Assembly: GCA_029933125.1 (NCBI GenBank) | Contig: JAOZOU010000030.1 | Location: 1 to 7,445, forward strand | DNA length: 7,445 nucleotides | Direction of reading: 5' to 3' | Source of the DNA: a bacterium | GTDB taxonomy: Bacteria > Arandabacterota > Arandabacteria > Arandabacterales > Arandabacteraceae | Shown: positions 1 to 7,445 of the stretch, in pieces | Layout: every line of letters starts with the position of its first letter | Position numbering within the stretch: the stretch's first letter is position 1 | Notes under the pieces: model-generated | What the model was told of the DNA's origin: nothing | The model's database searches: none | Seen by the model: only the letters and a program-made list of their open reading frames with translations | Position numbers and translations under genes: made by a program

Positions 1-131
1 AGCAGAAGCCCACAGTATCGTATGAGTATCTCAAGCGATATGCGAACCACTACATTTACTACGATGCCGCCTATGGAGTAGGAGTCATCCAGGAGAAAGC
101 CTGCTGCCTGATCAAGGTCAGTGATGCCTGA
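1..131 (+). CDS. C-terminal end of a truncated gene, possibly major capsid protein
   Basis: An open frame enters from the left edge (codons in phase with base 3) and ends with TGA at 129-131, giving the last 42 residues of a protein. The other two forward frames close within about 80 bases, so this is the plausible reading. The tail is aromatic and then beta-like (IYYDAAYGVGVIQEKACC, then LIKVSDA). A last beta strand ending close to the C-terminus is common in HK97-fold major capsid proteins. Its place just ahead of small virion-protein genes and upstream of adaptor genes also fits a capsid protein. That assignment is inference from position and style only; the fragment is too short for a firm family call. 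It is followed after 37 bases by the next gene. Confidence 0.5.
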   Translation, partial: QKPTVSYEYLKRYANHYIYYDAAYGVGVIQEKACCLIKVSDA

Positions 132-150
132 TCCGCTGAGTGAACTAAAG

Positions 151-157
151 AAAGGAG
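151..157 (+). promoter_or_regulatory. Shine-Dalgarno site for the 127-residue virion protein
   Basis: The purine run AAAGGAG lies 11 bases before the ATG at 169. A closer ATG at 162 opens a frame of only four codons, so the site decides for the start at 169. That start also gives the N-terminus shared with the spike gene at 953. Confidence 0.6.
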
Positions 158-168
158 AACTATGAGAA

Positions 169-552
169 ATGACTGAATATGGGTTCAGAGACAACAAAAT
201 CGCCGCGATGACTCCTGGCATCGTCACCGTCCCGATGAGTTTCGAAGATGGCGAGCAGACAGCCACGAAAATCTATTTCCCGTTCAAAGTCCGGATCGAC
301 AAAATCCGGAGCATTGTCATGAAGGCGATTGCAGGCACCGATGATGGCACCATTACCGGCGCGAATGCCAGCGGCAATTCCGCCAACGGTGTCGTCACAG
401 TCGCCGCCTCTTCCGCTCTCAACACTGAAGATTCTGCAACGCCAACATCCAACAACGTCGTCGAAGCCGGGTCTTACTACAAACTCACAGCTTCTAAGAG
501 TACAGCTGGTGGGAAGGTACTGGTCACACTTGAATACACACGCATTGCTTAG
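169..552 (+). CDS. small beta-rich virion protein (decoration or head-fiber type) with YGFRDNK docking peptide
   Basis: The product has 127 residues with no signal peptide or membrane segment. Residues 4-10 (YGFRDNK) recur at the same place in the spike encoded at 953. The rest is unrelated to that spike and rich in Gly, Ala, Ser, Thr and Val, with alternating beta-strand patterns: roughly 35-52 (KIYFPFKVRIDKIRSIVM), then a Gly/Ala/Ser loop (54-75), then strands at 75-80, 100-110 and 115-126. I recall this architecture from small phage virion proteins of unknown exact role. Capsid decoration protein or head fiber is the best inference, supported by its position after the presumed capsid gene. 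The next gene begins 2 bases after its stop, which suggests translational coupling. Confidence is high that it is a gene and moderate that it is structural. Confidence 0.8.
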   Translation: MTEYGFRDNKIAAMTPGIVTVPMSFEDGEQTATKIYFPFKVRIDKIRSIVMKAIAGTDDGTITGANASGNSANGVVTVAASSALNTEDSATPTSNNVVEAGSYYKLTASKSTAGGKVLVTLEYTRIA

Positions 553-554
553 AG

Positions 555-755
555 ATGTCCCCAGACCTGCCAGCGCTTATCAGCACGCTCGGCTTCCCAA
601 TCGCCGTCACTTGCTATCTGCTCTGGGAACGGCAGAACATCTCACGCAAACTCGAAAAGGCGATTCGGGAAGACCTCGTATCCGCGATTCAGGAGCTGAA
701 GGAGCAGATTATCATCTTTTCTGAACGCTGTAATGGAGGGCGCAGGAGGGAGTGA
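555..755 (+). CDS. YvrJ-like small membrane protein
   Basis: The product has 66 residues. A hydrophobic segment at about residues 7-24 contains LISTLGFPIAVTCYLLW, closely matching the YvrJ family signature: a short protein with an xGFPIAVTxxLLxR core followed by an amphipathic charged helix. Here the helix runs about 28-57 (KLEKAIREDLVSAIQELKEQ), and the protein ends in a basic RRRE tail. YvrJ proteins occur in many tailed-phage genomes; a holin-like or membrane role has been suggested, but I know of no firm function. The ATG lies two bases after the preceding stop with no clear Shine-Dalgarno, so it is probably translated by reinitiation. The site GGAGGG near its 3' end (745-750) serves the next gene. 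Confidence 0.75.
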   Translation: MSPDLPALISTLGFPIAVTCYLLWERQNISRKLEKAIREDLVSAIQELKEQIIIFSERCNGGRRRE

Positions 756-761
756 AGAGAT

Positions 762-920
762 ATGGCTGTCACAGTTGATGCAAGTGCCGATCCGTACATC
801 CATGCTTATGGCACGACCGCCGAAGTCTTAGGGCATCTCAAGGATCAGAACGTCGCCTCAAGCGATGTTATCGCGATCTGGTATAACGGCACCAACACCA
901 GTGTGGTCTATCGGCGATGA
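762..920 (+). CDS. 52-residue hypothetical virion-region protein
   Basis: ATG at 762 to TGA at 918-920 encodes 52 residues. The GGAGGG at 745-750 lies 11 bases upstream of the start, inside the end of the YvrJ-like gene, and only 6 bases separate the two genes. The protein starts MAVTVDASADPYIHAYGTTA and ends with a likely beta hairpin, SSDVIAIWYNGTNTSVVYRR. Small phage proteins with a similar ending (a DVIAIYYNG-type strand followed by VYR) are familiar to me, but I know of no function. There is no signal, membrane segment or cysteine. Codon use matches the neighbours, and the tight spacing with a ribosome site supports a real gene. A minor structural protein is possible but unproven. Confidence 0.65.
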   Translation: MAVTVDASADPYIHAYGTTAEVLGHLKDQNVASSDVIAIWYNGTNTSVVYRR

Positions 921-941
921 TAGTGTGAGAGGGAAAAAAAC

Positions 942-946
942 GGAGG
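942..946 (+). promoter_or_regulatory. Shine-Dalgarno site for the 380-residue spike
   Basis: GGAGG lies 6 bases before the ATG at 953, the strongest and best-spaced ribosome site in the first gene block. It is preceded by an A7 run. It fixes the start that carries the YGFRDNK peptide. Confidence 0.7.
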
Positions 947-952
947 ATTTTT

Positions 953-2095
953 ATGTCCAAGTATGGATTTAGAGACAATAAACTTGTAACTGCCCATTTG
1001 ACGGCTGATGATCTGAAAGTAACTTCGCGGGATTATTCATATCTGGTTACGAAGCTCGATTCAGGTGGCTATCGCGTGATCGACTGTGAAGGCTCGGTAG
1101 TTTTTACCGAAAATGATCCTAACCATGCCGAGAACGCGATTCAATGGGCTATAAACCAAAGTGGTTCTGGTTGTTCTATTTTTATAAAAAGAGGTGCATA
1201 TAATATCAGTGATACTATTAGCATAAAGAATGGTCTTAGTCATTTAGAGATACGTGGTGAGGGACAGGGAACGCATTTGCATGCTAAAATGAATAAGTCC
1301 TTGATAGAAATCGGAGAGGTTGGCACATACACTCATAACATCAAAATTGCAGATTTAGGACTTGGAGGTGAAGATGTCACTCCAATTGGGATAAAAATAT
1401 TCAGGAGTCGACTCCCGGTTCTCAAGAACCTACACATATCTCACTTCAATGATTCGGGGATTAAGATAGGAGGCTATACTTATTATGGGCAGATATCAGG
1501 TTGCCATATATACAGTAACTCTAACTACGGTATTTATGCATCGTATGCGCTTTACGAAACAGGCTCGCTTGGACCGTTCTCCATAAGAGATGTAAGTCTC
1601 TACAATCATATAACAGACATACATTTGCATAATATTGTTGCCGAATTAGCTACGGTGTCATTTGAATCTGCAACTAATGGGATTACTATGAACAATGTTA
1701 AGTCTGTATCATTAACTTCTTGTTACTTTGAGGGTCTAACTTATGGAATCAAAGTAGAAGCATCTGCCGTTAGTAGAGTTGCCGTAATTGAACCGTACTT
1801 TGCGGGTGATGTAGGCACGATATTAGTGAAAAGCGGAGGAGGGACAGCGCATATAGAGTGGGTTGGCGACTGGAATAAGGTATCAAGAAGTGACACAGCA
1901 ACCATACCAAGCGGAAACTCAAGTGTTGTAGTAGACCACGGATTGGTTGAAGCACCAAGTGATTTGCAATTAACAGGAACACATAGCGAAGTAGCTAATT
2001 GCTGGGTATCAGATATCACGGATACACAGTTCACAATAAATGCACCTGCTAATGTAACGGCTGATAGAGATGTCTATTGGGAAGCTGAAGTATGA
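953..2095 (+). CDS. right-handed beta-helix spike protein (pectate-lyase-like) with YGFRDNK docking peptide
   Basis: The product has 380 residues. Residues 1-12 repeat the docking peptide of the 127-residue protein. Residues 27-53 form a lead-in typical of archaeal pectate-lyase-like proteins (LVTKLDSGGYRVIDCEGSVV). Residues 58-122 hold the capping helix and first turns: AENAIQWAIN, then FIKRGAYNISDTI, then LEIRGEGQGTHL. Residues 125-300 are short beta-helix rungs with the repeated themes GIKI, GIYA, GITM and GIKV. Residues 314-380 match a C-terminal module I recognise from phage spikes: VVVDHGL, then FTI, ending VYWEAEV. No obvious catalytic carboxylate set can be assigned, so binding or cleavage of a host surface glycan is inference. 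The gene is A- and T-rich with AGT/AGC and ATA codons, unlike the GC-richer genes around it, which suggests acquisition of the spike body by transfer. Confidence 0.85.
   Translation: MSKYGFRDNKLVTAHLTADDLKVTSRDYSYLVTKLDSGGYRVIDCEGSVVFTENDPNHAENAIQWAINQSGSGCSIFIKRGAYNISDTISIKNGLSHLEIRGEGQGTHLHAKMNKSLIEIGEVGTYTHNIKIADLGLGGEDVTPIGIKIFRSRLPVLKNLHISHFNDSGIKIGGYTYYGQISGCHIYSNSNYGIYASYALYETGSLGPFSIRDVSLYNHITDIHLHNIVAELATVSFESATNGITMNNVKSVSLTSCYFEGLTYGIKVEASAVSRVAVIEPYFAGDVGTILVKSGGGTAHIEWVGDWNKVSRSDTATIPSGNSSVVVDHGLVEAPSDLQLTGTHSEVANCWVSDITDTQFTINAPANVTADRDVYWEAEV
1404..1430. repeat. two adjacent palindromes inside the first spike gene
   Basis: A perfect 12-base palindrome, GGAGTCGACTCC (1404-1415), is followed after one base by GGTTCT-CA-AGAACC (1417-1430), a 6-base-pair inverted repeat around two bases. 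They encode residues 151-159 of the beta-helix. The patch is GC-richer than the rest of this AT-rich gene. Each element alone is expected by chance about once or twice in a window of this size; only their adjacency is unusual. Confidence 0.5.
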
Positions 2096-2176
2096 TGTGA
2101 AGAGAAGGTGATCTGAGTACGGGTCTATTTGGGAGAGAAGGAGTTAAAAAAACAGATTCGGGTGAGTGAAAAAAAA

Positions 2177-2192
2177 CCGAAAAATTTTTATA
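2177..2192 (+). promoter_or_regulatory. archaeal-type promoter (BRE plus TATA box)
   Basis: CCGAAAAA (2177-2184) followed directly by TTTTTATA (2185-2192) fits a purine-rich BRE next to an archaeal TATA box. A start about 26 bases past the box centre would fall near 2215. It stands at the head of the 2446-5776 gene block, immediately after the end of the first block, so it probably gives the connector and spike genes their own transcript. The T5 in the box could also help to end upstream transcription. Confidence 0.5.
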
Positions 2193-2214
2193 CTCTCAGA
2201 ACGCTCCATCTTAT

Positions 2215-2282
2215 TGCAGTGCCATGAATACGCCCAACCTTTCCCTCCTCGCAACAGAACTTGACGGAGCACTGCATGCTCC
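2215..2282 (+). repeat. overlapping inverted repeats at the predicted 5' end of the leader
   Basis: TGCAGTGC (2215-2222) is exactly complementary to GCACTGCA (2269-2276), an 8-base-pair long-range stem. The second arm also lies within GGAGCA-CTGCA-TGCTCC (2266-2282), a 6-base-pair hairpin with a 5-base loop. The two pairings are mutually exclusive, as in an RNA switch, and they start right where transcription is predicted to begin. Chance occurrence cannot be excluded. Confidence 0.4.
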
Positions 2283-2382
2283 TCTCCTCTCGCTCCGTCT
2301 TCCAATTTCTTCCCGAGTATTTGTGCGTTGCCTTGCCTTGCCCTGCCACTTCACAGTACGCCCTTTATCCTCTATCCGGTCC

Positions 2383-2408
2383 GGGTGGAAGCGGAGGGGA
2401 GGAGGGGA
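2383..2408 (+). other. G-rich tract before the ribosome site
   Basis: The run has at least six G-tracts of two to four bases within 26 bases, including GGAGGGGAGGAGGGG. It could form a two-tier G-quadruplex or act as a set of decoy Shine-Dalgarno sequences. The true ribosome site GGAGG for the next gene lies at 2427-2431, 14 bases before its ATG. Confidence 0.35.
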
Positions 2409-2445
2409 TTTCCATCCTACGTAGCAGGAGGAAGCTGAAATCACG

Positions 2446-3132
2446 ATGCCGTTTTTAATCGTCAAACCGGACTATCCGCATGCTGCGATCACCAATGCAC
2501 GGCTGAATGTGCGCAAGGGCGAGATCATCGAATGCCCGCCCGACTATATGCCTTCATCTTCGTTCTTAGTGTTCGGCTCGCGTGCGGAAGCCGAGAAATA
2601 TCTTCGTTCGCTTCATGCTGCTTCGCAAAACCTGCCCGAAGCAACCCAGCCAGCAACGCCACCTCCCGCGGCGGAAGGGCGCTCCCGTCCCTCCCGGGAA
2701 AGAGGTTCTCCATCTTCACCTCCGCCTCTTTATCCGCTCTTCCGCCGTGTCTCCAGCATCCATGGCGAGACCGTCTATCAGCTATTCTCACGTGACATCC
2801 ACAGGTTCCTATCGCAACCAGAACCTGATATTATGCCAGATTTGCAGAGGCTGAACATTCACAAGAACACCGCGCAGCGGCTGCTGGATTACGAAGAGCG
2901 TCATTTCCATCGTCCTTCGATCATCCAGGCGCTCAAAGCCATCATCGAACGCGAAGAGAAAGCAGAGAGCGAAGACGAAGAAGAAGAGAAAGAGGAAGAG
3001 AGAAAACCGGCAGGCGAAGGGGAACCAAGGGGAAGTGGTGAGAAAACTGAAAAGTCTGAGAAACAACCGAAAGCTCCACGTGGCATCACGCATTCCAGCT
3101 CGCCGGGCGTGCGCAAGCTTCTGCAACCTTAA
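2446..3132 (+). CDS. 228-residue protein of unknown function with Pro-rich linker and charged tail
   Basis: I do not recognise a family. ATG at 2446 is the only start, because an in-frame TAG lies at 2422-2424. GGAGG at 2427-2431 is the likely ribosome site. Four segments are visible. Residues 1-56 look like a small alpha/beta domain (FLIVKPDY, then NVRKGEIIECPPDY, FLVFGS, and a helix AEAEKYL). Residues 60-97 are a Pro/Ser/Arg-rich linker. Residues 105-170 are helical, with NTAQRLLDYEERHFHRPSII as the most conserved-looking stretch. Residues 168-228 are charged and probably disordered, with the acidic block ESEDEEEEKEEER followed by a Lys/Arg/Ser-rich end. It is the first gene of the connector block and lies 26 bases ahead of an adaptor gene, so a head or neck accessory or assembly protein is likely. 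The charged tail would suit a scaffold or DNA-end-binding role, which is inference. Confidence 0.75.
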   Translation: MPFLIVKPDYPHAAITNARLNVRKGEIIECPPDYMPSSSFLVFGSRAEAEKYLRSLHAASQNLPEATQPATPPPAAEGRSRPSRERGSPSSPPPLYPLFRRVSSIHGETVYQLFSRDIHRFLSQPEPDIMPDLQRLNIHKNTAQRLLDYEERHFHRPSIIQALKAIIEREEKAESEDEEEEKEEERKPAGEGEPRGSGEKTEKSEKQPKAPRGITHSSSPGVRKLLQP

Positions 3133-3136
3133 TATC
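3129..3136 (+). promoter_or_regulatory. weak TATA-like box ahead of the first adaptor
   Basis: TTAATATC overlaps the stop of the preceding gene and is centred about 26 bases before the ATG at 3159. No Shine-Dalgarno precedes that ATG (CTCTATCTTTTACC). The spacing is what a leaderless archaeal transcript would need, but the upstream bases are a poor BRE match, so this is a weak candidate. Confidence 0.25.
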
Positions 3137-3158
3137 TTTCTGAGCTCTATCTTTTACC

Positions 3159-3770
3159 ATGTCATACGCGTCGCTCTCGAAGCTGCGGCTGCTCACGCAT
3201 TTCACGGTTGCTGAGATTTCAGATGCTGATGTTTCTTCGCTCATCCCTGAAGCCGATCGCGCGGTTCTGAGGCTCGCGACGATTGAGGTCTATGACGAGA
3301 AGCTCGAAGGTGACATTGATGGCTCCAATACGATCTTCACGACCGCACACAAGCCGATTGCCGATACGGACTTTGATTCTGATGTGGACGCTGATGATGT
3401 CACCGTGTATCTCGTTGATTACGACAGCGAAATGAATCCGGTGCATTCCTCCACTGAAGTTGCATCGGTGAATGCGCGCGACGGGATCATCACACTCTCT
3501 GAAGCGCCAACTACCACGAATGCAGAGGTTGGGGTTTTTGCCGATTACCGGTACTACAAAATGCCGGTGGATTATGATGTGCTCAAGCTCGCTGCGAATT
3601 ACTATCTCGCGCATCTTTGCGAGATGAAGATTCGCACTGAACGGGCATTGCAGTTCACAACGCCACAACCCAGCAAACTCCCGCCGGTTACGTCCTCAAA
3701 ATCGCGCTGGCTGGAGCTCGCGCTCTCGCAGCTACCGTTTGCTAAACCGTCCTTGATAGGGGTGAAATAA
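3159..3770 (+). CDS. head-tail adaptor-like protein with inserted beta domain
   Basis: The product has 203 residues. Residues 3-42 are helical with the adaptor-type pattern ISDADVSSLIPEADRAVLRLA, and residues 138-160 hold a second helix (YDVLKLAANYYLAHLCEMK). Both match the next gene's product in order and spacing. This resembles the small helical connectors of the HK97 gp6 / SPP1 gp15 kind, which form a ring under the portal. Between the helices, about residues 44-135, sits a beta-rich insertion with DIDGSNTIF, then DVTVYLVDY, then ARDGIITLSEAP, then FADYRYY. I recall this insertion in viral adaptors. The D/N/G-rich loop DTDFDSDVDADD could bind calcium. The tail (168-203) is Pro/Ser-rich. 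No Shine-Dalgarno precedes the ATG. The role is inferred from fold pattern and position. Confidence 0.7.
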   Translation: MSYASLSKLRLLTHFTVAEISDADVSSLIPEADRAVLRLATIEVYDEKLEGDIDGSNTIFTTAHKPIADTDFDSDVDADDVTVYLVDYDSEMNPVHSSTEVASVNARDGIITLSEAPTTTNAEVGVFADYRYYKMPVDYDVLKLAANYYLAHLCEMKIRTERALQFTTPQPSKLPPVTSSKSRWLELALSQLPFAKPSLIGVK

Positions 3771-3773
3771 GAA

Positions 3774-4133
3774 ATGTCCGTAACTTATACCACCGCGGCA
3801 ATTGTGAAGAAGCGTGTGAAGAGCATTTCTTCGTCGCTTTCTGATGATGATATCGAGGAGAACATACTTCAGGCTGAGTCGCTCATCGATTCTGTGATGA
3901 AGCGTACGGCACGTGGTACGTCGCCCGATTTCACGTTCGATGCAGATAAGCACGGCATCATACGCGACTGTGCTACGAACTATGCGGCGTATCTCTGCAT
4001 CACCTACGATCCAACTGAGTTCGCGTCCATGGAGACTGCGGAGATGGTTGCGAATCTGCTCTGGAATGCGGTGCAGAATGCGCTCACCATGCTCTCCGAT
4101 TCGCGGTTTGTTGAGTATCTCGCTTCATTGTAA
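3774..4133 (+). CDS. second head-tail adaptor-like protein
   Basis: The product has 119 residues, compact and largely helical. Residues 5-43 (YTTAAIVKKRVKSISS, then LSDDDIEENILQAESLIDSVM) and 62-76 (IIRDCATNYAAYLC) are typical of gp6-like connector proteins. They align without gaps to the first adaptor's N-terminal helix pair and to its ANYYLAHLC helix. The C-terminal helix (85-108) contains METAEMVANLLWNAVQNALTM. It lacks the beta insertion of its neighbour. GGGGTGA at 3759-3765, inside the end of the preceding gene, lies 8 bases before the ATG. The start follows the previous stop by three bases and the next start follows this stop by two, so the three genes are surely co-translated. It may act as a second ring or a stopper in the neck. 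Confidence 0.7.
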   Translation: MSVTYTTAAIVKKRVKSISSSLSDDDIEENILQAESLIDSVMKRTARGTSPDFTFDADKHGIIRDCATNYAAYLCITYDPTEFASMETAEMVANLLWNAVQNALTMLSDSRFVEYLASL

Positions 4134-4135
4134 CC

Positions 4136-5776
4136 ATGAATCCTGAATTGTTTCCGTTCCGGAATCTCGAATGGCGCCGGTGGTTTCATCGGTATACGAC
4201 ACCGCGCGACTGGAAGAAGGGCGCGCGTGATGTTCCTTTCGGGCTGGGCGCGAAGACGCTGTATGTGGATGGCACGAATGGTAATGATGCGAACGATGGC
4301 GAGTCCTGGAAGACCGCGAAGAAGACCATTCAAGCTGCGGTTGATGTTGCAGAAAGTTGGTCGCACATTTTTGTTAAAGCCGGTACTTATTCCGAAAACG
4401 TTTCCGTTTCTAAGAATTTCATTTCGCTGCTCGGTGAGACCCGAGATTCCGTCATCATTCAGCCTTCTTCTGATGATGTCTTCACCGTTTCTGGTAATGA
4501 TTGCCGCATCTCTTCCTTCTCTCCTTTTGCCCCCTCCGATGGTGATTATTGCATCAAGGTTACCGGCGACCGGGTGTTACTCGATAACCTGAAATTAGAT
4601 GGTGCCACAAACTCTTCTGGTATTTGGCTTTCTTCTTCCGATCACTCTTCTATCAGGCATATTTTTGCTTCTAATGCCAACCTTATCGAAGCTTTGAAAG
4701 TCGTTGGTACTTCTTCCTTCATTGAAATCAGTCATAATGTTTTTGATCTCTCTAAACACGGTGTCGCTTATCTCCTCTATCTCGAAAAAATTTTCAAATC
4801 AAAAATTTTTGAGAACGACCTCGGCTCAGTCCAAACTGGACTCTACGTAGAATCCGATTGTTCGGATGTGCTTATTTTCCATAATAATTTTATTTCCAAC
4901 AGTTATCAAATCGAGGACCGTGGTGGCACTCGCATCTCGTACTATGAAAATTATTTCGATGATCATTCCAACTCGGATAATGGCTTTGGCATCGCTACCG
5001 AACCTTATTCCTTCCACGGTGGGTCCGATCCACGCCCTGTTGTTTGCCGTGACGGCTGGCTCGTTCTATCGTGGGCTGATGCTGATCAAGTTGCTCTCGC
5101 TTCCGTATGCACGGAAGCGCGGCTCGCAGAATTAGATGCCGCTAATATTCCCGCCGATATCGATACGTTACTCTCTCGGCTGACTGCCACCCGCGCTGGC
5201 TATCTCGATGAACTTGATTTTGACTTAGATGCGCGGCTCGGCTCCCCCGCCTCTTCTTCCATTGCGGCAGATATCGCAGACCTCATTACTCGCACTAAGG
5301 GTCTTAATGACATCCATGATGATCTCGCCACAGTCGATTCAGTCGTGGATGCAATCCTCGCTAATCAGAAGAAATACTGGCACTGGAATGCTATCTCTGG
5401 TGACTACCGTGTAATTGAAGGCACATGGGCTCTCGCAACTGATTATTATCAGCATCTCACGTGTGTTCTGTACAATTCCAGCGATCATATGGATGATGAA
5501 ATCGCGATCCCGTTCTATGTTCCGTCCACCGATGCTCGCACATTGAACATCCGTTGTAAGACCAAGAGCGATGCTGGCATTGTTACCGTTAAGGTTGAAT
5601 CTCAATCGCAGGGTACAATTGATCTCTATAGCTCTTCCACGCAAAACAACGTAATTAAAACTATCTCAATCACTCCCGCTCGTGCCGGGATGAATGTTCT
5701 CAAGCTGGAAGTTACCGATCAAAATCCATCTTCCTCCGACTATTATTGTTATATCTCAGAGTTGTGGCTTACCTGA
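4136..5776 (+). CDS. modular tail-spike/fiber protein: docking region, beta-helix, coiled stalk, C-terminal beta domain
   Basis: The product has 546 residues. Residues 1-38 are Trp/Arg-rich (FRNLEWRRWFHRYTTPRDW) and probably attach to the virion. Residues 41-310 are a right-handed beta-helix opening with YVDGTNGNDANDGESWKTAK, the common start of DUF1565-like helices, then the helix TIQAAVDVA and rungs such as HIFVKAGTY, SGIWLSS, TGLYVES and NNFISN. Residues 326-412 are a helical stalk with the phage-fiber signature TEARLAELDAANIPADID, then LLSRLTATRAGYLDEL. Residues 413-546 are a beta-rich end domain (WHWNAISGDYRVIEGTW to ISELWLT), probably for receptor binding or trimerisation. No enzyme residues can be named. 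There is no Shine-Dalgarno; the ATG comes two bases after the previous stop. The beta-helix part uses T-rich codons (TCT, TTC, ATT), unlike both flanking modules. Confidence 0.85.
   Translation: MNPELFPFRNLEWRRWFHRYTTPRDWKKGARDVPFGLGAKTLYVDGTNGNDANDGESWKTAKKTIQAAVDVAESWSHIFVKAGTYSENVSVSKNFISLLGETRDSVIIQPSSDDVFTVSGNDCRISSFSPFAPSDGDYCIKVTGDRVLLDNLKLDGATNSSGIWLSSSDHSSIRHIFASNANLIEALKVVGTSSFIEISHNVFDLSKHGVAYLLYLEKIFKSKIFENDLGSVQTGLYVESDCSDVLIFHNNFISNSYQIEDRGGTRISYYENYFDDHSNSDNGFGIATEPYSFHGGSDPRPVVCRDGWLVLSWADADQVALASVCTEARLAELDAANIPADIDTLLSRLTATRAGYLDELDFDLDARLGSPASSSIAADIADLITRTKGLNDIHDDLATVDSVVDAILANQKKYWHWNAISGDYRVIEGTWALATDYYQHLTCVLYNSSDHMDDEIAIPFYVPSTDARTLNIRCKTKSDAGIVTVKVESQSQGTIDLYSSSTQNNVIKTISITPARAGMNVLKLEVTDQNPSSSDYYCYISELWLT
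5098..5119 (+). repeat. perfect 9-base-pair inverted repeat at a spike domain junction
   Basis: CGCTTCCGT (5098-5106) and ACGGAAGCG (5111-5119) flank the 4-base loop ATGC. The hairpin encodes about residues 321-328, exactly between the beta-helix and the coiled stalk. A rough chance expectation for such a 9-base-pair hairpin with a short loop is below one per window this size, so position and perfection are both mildly notable. Confidence 0.55.
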
Positions 5777-6696: not shown

Positions 6697-7445
6697 TCAC
6701 GCGTCCTCCAGCTCCGCAGTCACTTTTAATCGTTTCTGCGCAATTACCCTCACGTTTCCGCGTCTGAAGGTGAAGGTGAGCTCTGTCGCGCGATTAAACT
6801 GGTAGGGCACATATAATCGAAGCTGGTTCTCACCCTTTCTCAATCGCTTCCTGAAGCTGAAGAGTCCCGGTCGGGTTTCTAACTGATAAGTTTTCCCTGT
6901 TCTTATCCCTGTCCTTATCATCAGATCCAGTCGCGCACCGAAGAGAGTGTTTCGAATCCGCTGGCATTCGATCTTAATATCATGCCCGGGGGGGAGCGGC
7001 GGTTCAGGCTTCGGTTCGGGCTTTGGTGTCGGTGTCGCGCGCGGGCGTACGACCCACGCTTCCGGGATAGGGTAATTCAGTGGCAGCGTGCCATAGCCGC
7101 GATTACCCCATTCCTCGCCCCATGAGTTCTTGAATTTCAGTCGTTTCGCAGCCAAGTCATATCCAACTATCAAAATCGCGTGATAGCCCAGAAATTCGCC
7201 TTTGGGCATGCCTATCTTGCCGTCCCAGCGCCAGGTGTTATAGACCGGCACCGCTGCGAAAATCGGCAGACGGTTCTTCCATAAAGTGCCCGGAATATCG
7301 TTGTAAACTCTGTGATACGTGCCGATCCGGTAGTGCTCCATCTCCGCTTCGATCCACGGACTTGAACACACCCGCTTTCGGCAGCCTCTCGATAAGGGAT
7401 AGCAGCCTTCGGTGCATGTCCCTTCTTTCTGCATGAGCTTCAGCG
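6697..7445 (-). CDS. papain-like (C1A) cysteine peptidase with C-terminal beta domain, N-terminus missing
   Basis: The frame stays open through the window edge, so the Met at 7434 is internal and not the start. The codons before it read LKL, which fits the usual stretch after the catalytic Cys motif (the LMQKEGTCTEGCYP part of papain-type domains). Visible hallmarks are GYHAILIVGYD with the catalytic His (codon 7180-7182) and FKNSWGEEWGNRGYG with the catalytic Asn. The active Cys would lie just outside the window. The peptidase domain ends near WVV (about 7050). A linker with PKPEPKPEPPLPP follows, then a 95-residue basic beta-rich domain, perhaps for substrate or surface binding. The role may be virion entry, host lysis or processing; a target such as an S-layer or protein sheath is inference. 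The gene runs opposite to the structural genes and is followed by the winged-helix gene. Confidence 0.85.
   Translation of the reverse strand, partial: LKLMQKEGTCTEGCYPLSRGCRKRVCSSPWIEAEMEHYRIGTYHRVYNDIPGTLWKNRLPIFAAVPVYNTWRWDGKIGMPKGEFLGYHAILIVGYDLAAKRLKFKNSWGEEWGNRGYGTLPLNYPIPEAWVVRPRATPTPKPEPKPEPPLPPGHDIKIECQRIRNTLFGARLDLMIRTGIRTGKTYQLETRPGLFSFRKRLRKGENQLRLYVPYQFNRATELTFTFRRGNVRVIAQKRLKVTAELEDA

Follow-up and report, generated by a model that had tools for sequence, protein, structure and literature searches.

The tailspikes of K1E, K1-5, and SP6 use hepta- and undecapeptides for docking, and those of the KP32 viruses use a 29-residue peptide (PMC6872550). On phage heads, residues 1-38 of crAss001 gp21 and residues 1-58 of gp29 bind at hexon centres (PMC10172136), the Andhra head fibre touches the hexamer via a small N-terminal domain (PMC9710869), and the N-arm of gp87 of P74-26 is visible only when capsid-bound (PMC7602432). 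Here we describe a leader peptide, M-[ST]-[EK]-Y-G-F-R-D-N-K-[IL], at the start of two phage proteins encoded on one contig. Comparison with relatives suggests that the peptide probably serves as an N-terminal docking arm by which different surface proteins are held at a single place on the virion, most likely the capsid exterior.

The window, i.e. the whole stretch of DNA analysed, is the complete contig C31 (7445 bases) of a genome of 176 contigs that is 97% complete. TFIIB and MCR were absent from this genome while the controls were positive; an archaeal host was therefore rejected and the genome is bacterial. The first 55 bases of the window are also the start of contig C127 and the end of contig C156 of the same genome. 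This overlap looks like an assembly fork, and C127 and the window therefore seem to represent two related viruses, or haplotypes, that coexist and diverge shortly before the capsid gene ends. In their aligned DNA, identity is 90% at the near end and 86% at the far one, with 95% in the YvrJ-like gene that lies in the middle, and the two differ in a cassette that extends up to a gene whose product begins MPFLIVKPDY. The presumption that a capsid gene lies upstream held, since C156 runs into the window and its ORF matches major head protein families (PHROG 1357, E 2e-16). The features of the window are as follows.

1-131, + strand: 3' end of the major capsid gene; the rest of the ORF is on C156, and relatives have the full gene here.
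169-201, + strand: leader MTEYGFRDNKI (codons 1-11) of the 127-aa protein (p127); identical in four orthologues; pLDDT below 50.
202-552, + strand: jelly-roll body of p127; AF2 pLDDT about 90, eight strands; homologous domain in C127, L103, L148, L150, and L151.
555-755, + strand: YvrJ-like 66-aa protein, encoded between the leader genes; its PF12841 match (E 6e-7) narrowly misses the cut-off.
762-920, + strand: 52-aa cassette ORF that L016 shares; no family match.
953-985, + strand: core leader MSKYGFRDNKL (codons 1-11) of the spike; identities 10/11 to C127, 9/11 to L111, and 8/11 to p127.
986-1030, + strand: second half of the spike leader (VTAHLTADDLKVTSR), common to the stalked leader proteins.
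1166-1543, + strand: beta-helix region of the spike; PF13229 E 7e-6.
1886-2092, + strand: C-terminal domain of the spike (residues 312-380), 71% identical to the end of a protein encoded on viral contig L153.
2446-3132, + strand: 228-aa MPFLIVKPDYPHA protein, the conserved right border of the variable cassette; present in C127, L016, and L111.
4136-5776, + strand: second beta-helix-like protein, 546 aa, without the leader; PF05048 E 2e-5, PHROG tail fibre E 1.5e-9.

The coordinates and starts given for the two leader genes in the preliminary description were right: the ORF at 169-552 encodes 127 aa and that at 953-2095 encodes 380 aa. Each is preceded by a plausible ribosome-binding site (AAAGGAG at 151-157 and GGAGG at 942-946, respectively). 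YGFRDNK was the sole word of at least six residues common to any two proteins of the window. By chance, about 0.005 shared 7-mers would be expected among these proteins, and 3.5e-9 in this exact register. Taken alone, the match comprises only seven residues, but it is found again in C127 and L111, with matches at up to 26 positions; a chance resemblance between two protein starts was therefore rejected, and its probability is negligible. Behind the leader, p127 and the spike are unrelated (0/15 identities at residues 12-26), as had been stated. The description of two unrelated virion proteins sharing a heptapeptide was thus accurate as to the word, but the leader is a longer homologous module, of about 26 residues in the spike, and p127 also has a stalked homologue, on C127.

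Codon comparison of the two window leaders revealed three synonymous differences (GGG/GGA, TTC/TTT, and AAC/AAT) and no non-synonymous difference in codons 4-10. In all 15 leader pairs compared, these codons had changed synonymously only, with 2-5 changes per seven codons, which bears out the earlier view that the synonymous positions have diverged and that the peptide is kept at the protein level. Recent copying of the leader DNA was rejected, because the synonymous sites have diverged and the window holds no DNA self-match. A constraint at the RNA level is unlikely for the former reason.

A six-residue pattern search of the same genome gave exactly one further site, on C127. It lies in a 179-aa protein, MSKYGFRDNKIVTERVTTDDLAATTK..., composed of the leader, an AK-type repeat stalk (SAAKLASDAVETAKIKDSAV), and a C-terminal domain related to p127 (24% identity over 116 residues; profile comparison, E 5e-9). 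The stalk repeats resemble those of phage fibres and match tail-fibre PHROGs; the AK-repeat hits of one search were to generic stalk repeats and were left out as evidence. In IMG/VR (2.9 million viral contigs), the pattern M-x2-YGFRDNK was found only in four p127 orthologues of about 90% identity. Among 84,980 genomes, it gave one real case, L111 (QNCM01000029.1), and two chance matches. L111 is a clearly related virus, and its 160-aa leader protein is encoded directly behind the capsid gene. This protein has the same stalk as that of C127 (30/49 identities at residues 27-75), and no relation of its C-terminal domain to p127 was detectable.

The leader is therefore found in four architectures: with the jelly roll (p127 and its four orthologues), with the stalk and a diverged jelly roll (C127), with the stalk and an unrelated C-terminal domain (L111), and with the beta-helix (the window spike). 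The bodies share about 25% identity or are unrelated, and three of them, the p127-type jelly roll, the L111 domain, and the beta-helix, are mutually unrelated. A search for the motif before diverse C-terminal domains had been proposed beforehand, and such proteins, with or without a stalk, were found. Because the leader codons change only synonymously while the bodies diverge or are unrelated, the leader appears to be a conserved anchoring module with exchangeable cargo. Two leader proteins occur in the window virus only, each relative having one leader gene in its whole record; the attachment of two appendages through one tag therefore rests on a single case.

No wider family with the motif was found outside this phage group. 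With a relaxed pattern, 16 additional loci came up, almost all of them internal peptides or starts that match by chance, and the pattern YGFxxNKCK gave chance matches only, apart from the locus L128 itself. A tblastn search of 50,697 phage records returned nothing for p127, the C127 protein, the L103 protein, the spike, the L128 protein, or the L148 fibre; as a control, a crAss ring protein matched 82 records of the same set. Eight genomes of the phylum to which this genome belongs were examined, and the protein was absent from the other seven. The phages with the leader are one group from hydrothermal sediment, and the name of the L111 MAG suggests Guaymas. That MAG is labelled Omnitrophota and the window belongs to a genome of another phylum, which would indicate a wide host range or a misbinned free virus.

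To p127, AF2 with a ten-sequence alignment assigned a mean pLDDT of 86, with residues 1-11 below 50 and the remainder forming an eight-stranded jelly roll; the predicted disordered stretch coincides exactly with the leader. Among solved structures, no relative of p127 was found by sequence. The model is similar in fold and size to the cement proteins of Helicobacter phages KHP30 and KHP40 (7dn2: Z 9.0, 114 residues aligned, 3.3 A; 7dou: Z 8.5, 110 aligned, 3.5 A) and to capsid chain H of cyanophage Pam1 (7eel: Z 7.6, 118 aligned, 4.7 A). The sequence identity of these proteins to p127 is only 7-12%, and equally high scores are reached by other jelly rolls: the coat protein of a plant satellite virus has Z 10.6, and a phage baseplate chain scores similarly to the cement proteins. 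For this reason, the fold alone cannot place the docking site. p127 itself had no Pfam match, and hence none to Phage_cement_2 (PF09956). Domains of the p127 type also end stalked fibres of other phages (L148, L150, and L151), which tells against the proposed head site. The L148 fibre (3533-4522) is that of a crAss-like phage and ends in such a jelly roll (profile E 2e-23); its gene comes third behind one that matches the auxiliary capsid protein of crAss001.

The PF13229 match of the spike is weak but above the cut-off (26.1 versus 25.9 bits), and single-sequence AF2 gave no usable model (mean pLDDT 43). Residues 1-26 have 17/26 identities to the C127 protein and 16/26 to the L111 protein. 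Since its leader is closer to those of the stalked leader proteins than to that of its neighbour p127, the spike probably arose by cargo replacement in a stalked leader gene. The same resemblance makes a fusion origin likely and would also suit the leader being a relic, the spike having been fused recently behind a copied leader with no common function. We consider this improbable, because every pair of leaders has diverged synonymously with no amino-acid change and the leader is kept before four architectures.

The cassette (window 131-2446, compared with C127, which is L004), bounded by the capsid gene and the MPFLIVKPDY gene, swaps large candidate adhesins. The candidates are the beta-helix in the window, a 716-aa DUF2341 protein in C127, a 529-aa protein in L015, and Laminin_G_3 proteins in L014 and, by resemblance, in L111. 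A second shared N-terminal module, M[KS]xFFxLDGxTYxLNELxTxxLR, begins the gene after the YvrJ-like ORF in C127 (L004:2543-2977, - strand), L015 (9117-9557), L014 (12610-13305), and L111 (4302-4991), and the C-terminal parts of these proteins differ. In the window and L016, the 52-aa ORF stands in place of this gene. To the right of the cassette, the ORFs at 3159-3770 and 3774-4133 had been called adaptors, an assignment that no family match confirms. The first 90 residues of the protein at 4136-5776 are conserved in L016 and L111 and its middle diverges (against L016, 34/45 identities in the first 45 residues and 9/45 at residues 136-180), so that it has another conserved N-terminal anchor and variable body. 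From this comparison, the place of a gene in the order seems, among these viruses, to go with its N-terminal module rather than with its body. A gene for a papain-family cysteine protease (PF00112, E 5e-7) occupies positions 6697-7434 of the - strand, at the contig end.

A leader gene stands directly behind the capsid gene in 7/7 sequences (for L017, by comparing positions); the spike gene itself is two small genes further from the capsid gene than that of p127. A place beside the capsid gene is what would be expected of genes for head fibre and capsid decoration proteins. The more distant virus L103 has a jelly roll 67% identical to that of p127, which is without the leader and lies behind a Phage_cement_2 domain (PF09956, residues 2-106, E 3e-9). 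The gene for this fusion sits between those for a Mu-like maturation protease (PF10123, E 2e-26) and the major head protein. These points also bear on the alternative of docking to the tail (at the hub, an adaptor, or the baseplate), under which the proteins would be tail fibres and tailspikes. Tailspikes of K1-5, K1E, SP6, and KP32 do indeed have the best-known docking peptides of the shared kind (PMC6872550), the crAss001 tail fibre gp22 docks via residues 1-26 (PMC10172136), and the AK repeats have tail-fibre matches. A 191-aa protein starting MAVYGFKDNKCKAE... (L128:2294-2869; MAVYGFKDNK) is also encoded among tail-like genes of another phage, where it may be a chance match or a distant analogue. 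Against this alternative, the leader genes follow the capsid gene immediately and precede the conserved genes at 2446-4133, L103 has the jelly roll joined to a capsid-cement domain, and the likely tail beta-helix protein of the window (4136-5776) is without the leader. We therefore regard tail docking as unlikely, though deserving serious consideration.

These results suggest that the leader is a shared tag, a reading well supported by the sequence comparisons. The preliminary description had placed the site on the head, and gene position, the L103 cement fusion, and the cement-like jelly-roll model favour this location; the capsid is the favoured docking site, as inferred from these three indirect lines. 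In the proposed docking mechanism, the leader arm would lack order as long as the protein is free and would become folded within a capsid pocket during assembly, like the N-termini of crAss001 head fibres. The arm would carry a stalkless jelly-roll knob on p127, a beta-helix on the window spike, and in relatives a knob or another domain on the AK-repeat stalk, so that the outward-facing part could be swapped behind the docked arm. Binding by the leader, trimeric assembly, and a role in host adhesion are presumed. A conserved, disordered N-terminal peptide could also serve as a recognition tag for a shared assembly factor, such as a chaperone or protease, or the two leader proteins might contact each other through it. 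Both versions are very doubtful. Relatives with a single leader protein still keep the leader, so a contact between leaders is not its general role, and short and stalked forms diverge from residue 12, so no common cleavage site is evident.

More tentatively, the docking arm may be a transferable capsid-docking tag of about 11 residues with which one phage lineage displays arbitrary domains, including a possibly enzymatic beta-helix spike, at a single capsid site; knob and spike would then share or compete for head positions, and swaps could change host contact. If true, a very short sequence would suffice to target unrelated domains to the phage head, head decoration would be as modular as tailspikes, head fibres would be easier to recognise from sequence alone, and the leader would be a natural display tag.

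The L103 protein resembles p127 in its C-terminal domain and in being encoded beside the major head protein gene, but a folded cement domain replaces the YGFRDNK leader and its gene is before, not behind, the head protein gene. As in the crAss001 head fibres, where N-terminal segments fix the fibres in a hexon pocket and gp29 has a beta-sandwich behind, a terminal segment would provide attachment; gp21 and gp29, however, have separate segments, whereas here one peptide is found on unrelated bodies. The K1-5, SP6, and KP32 tailspikes, the nearest functional parallel, likewise have a short N-terminal peptide common to different appendages with the parts behind it swapped, as observed here. Their peptides are, as far as known, unrelated in sequence to the YGFRDNK leader, and they dock on tail anchor proteins, whereas the leader genes follow the capsid gene and the capsid is the probable site. 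Docking by short shared peptides is thus already known, mostly for tail parts, and what is new here is the setting and the unusually clear domain swaps.
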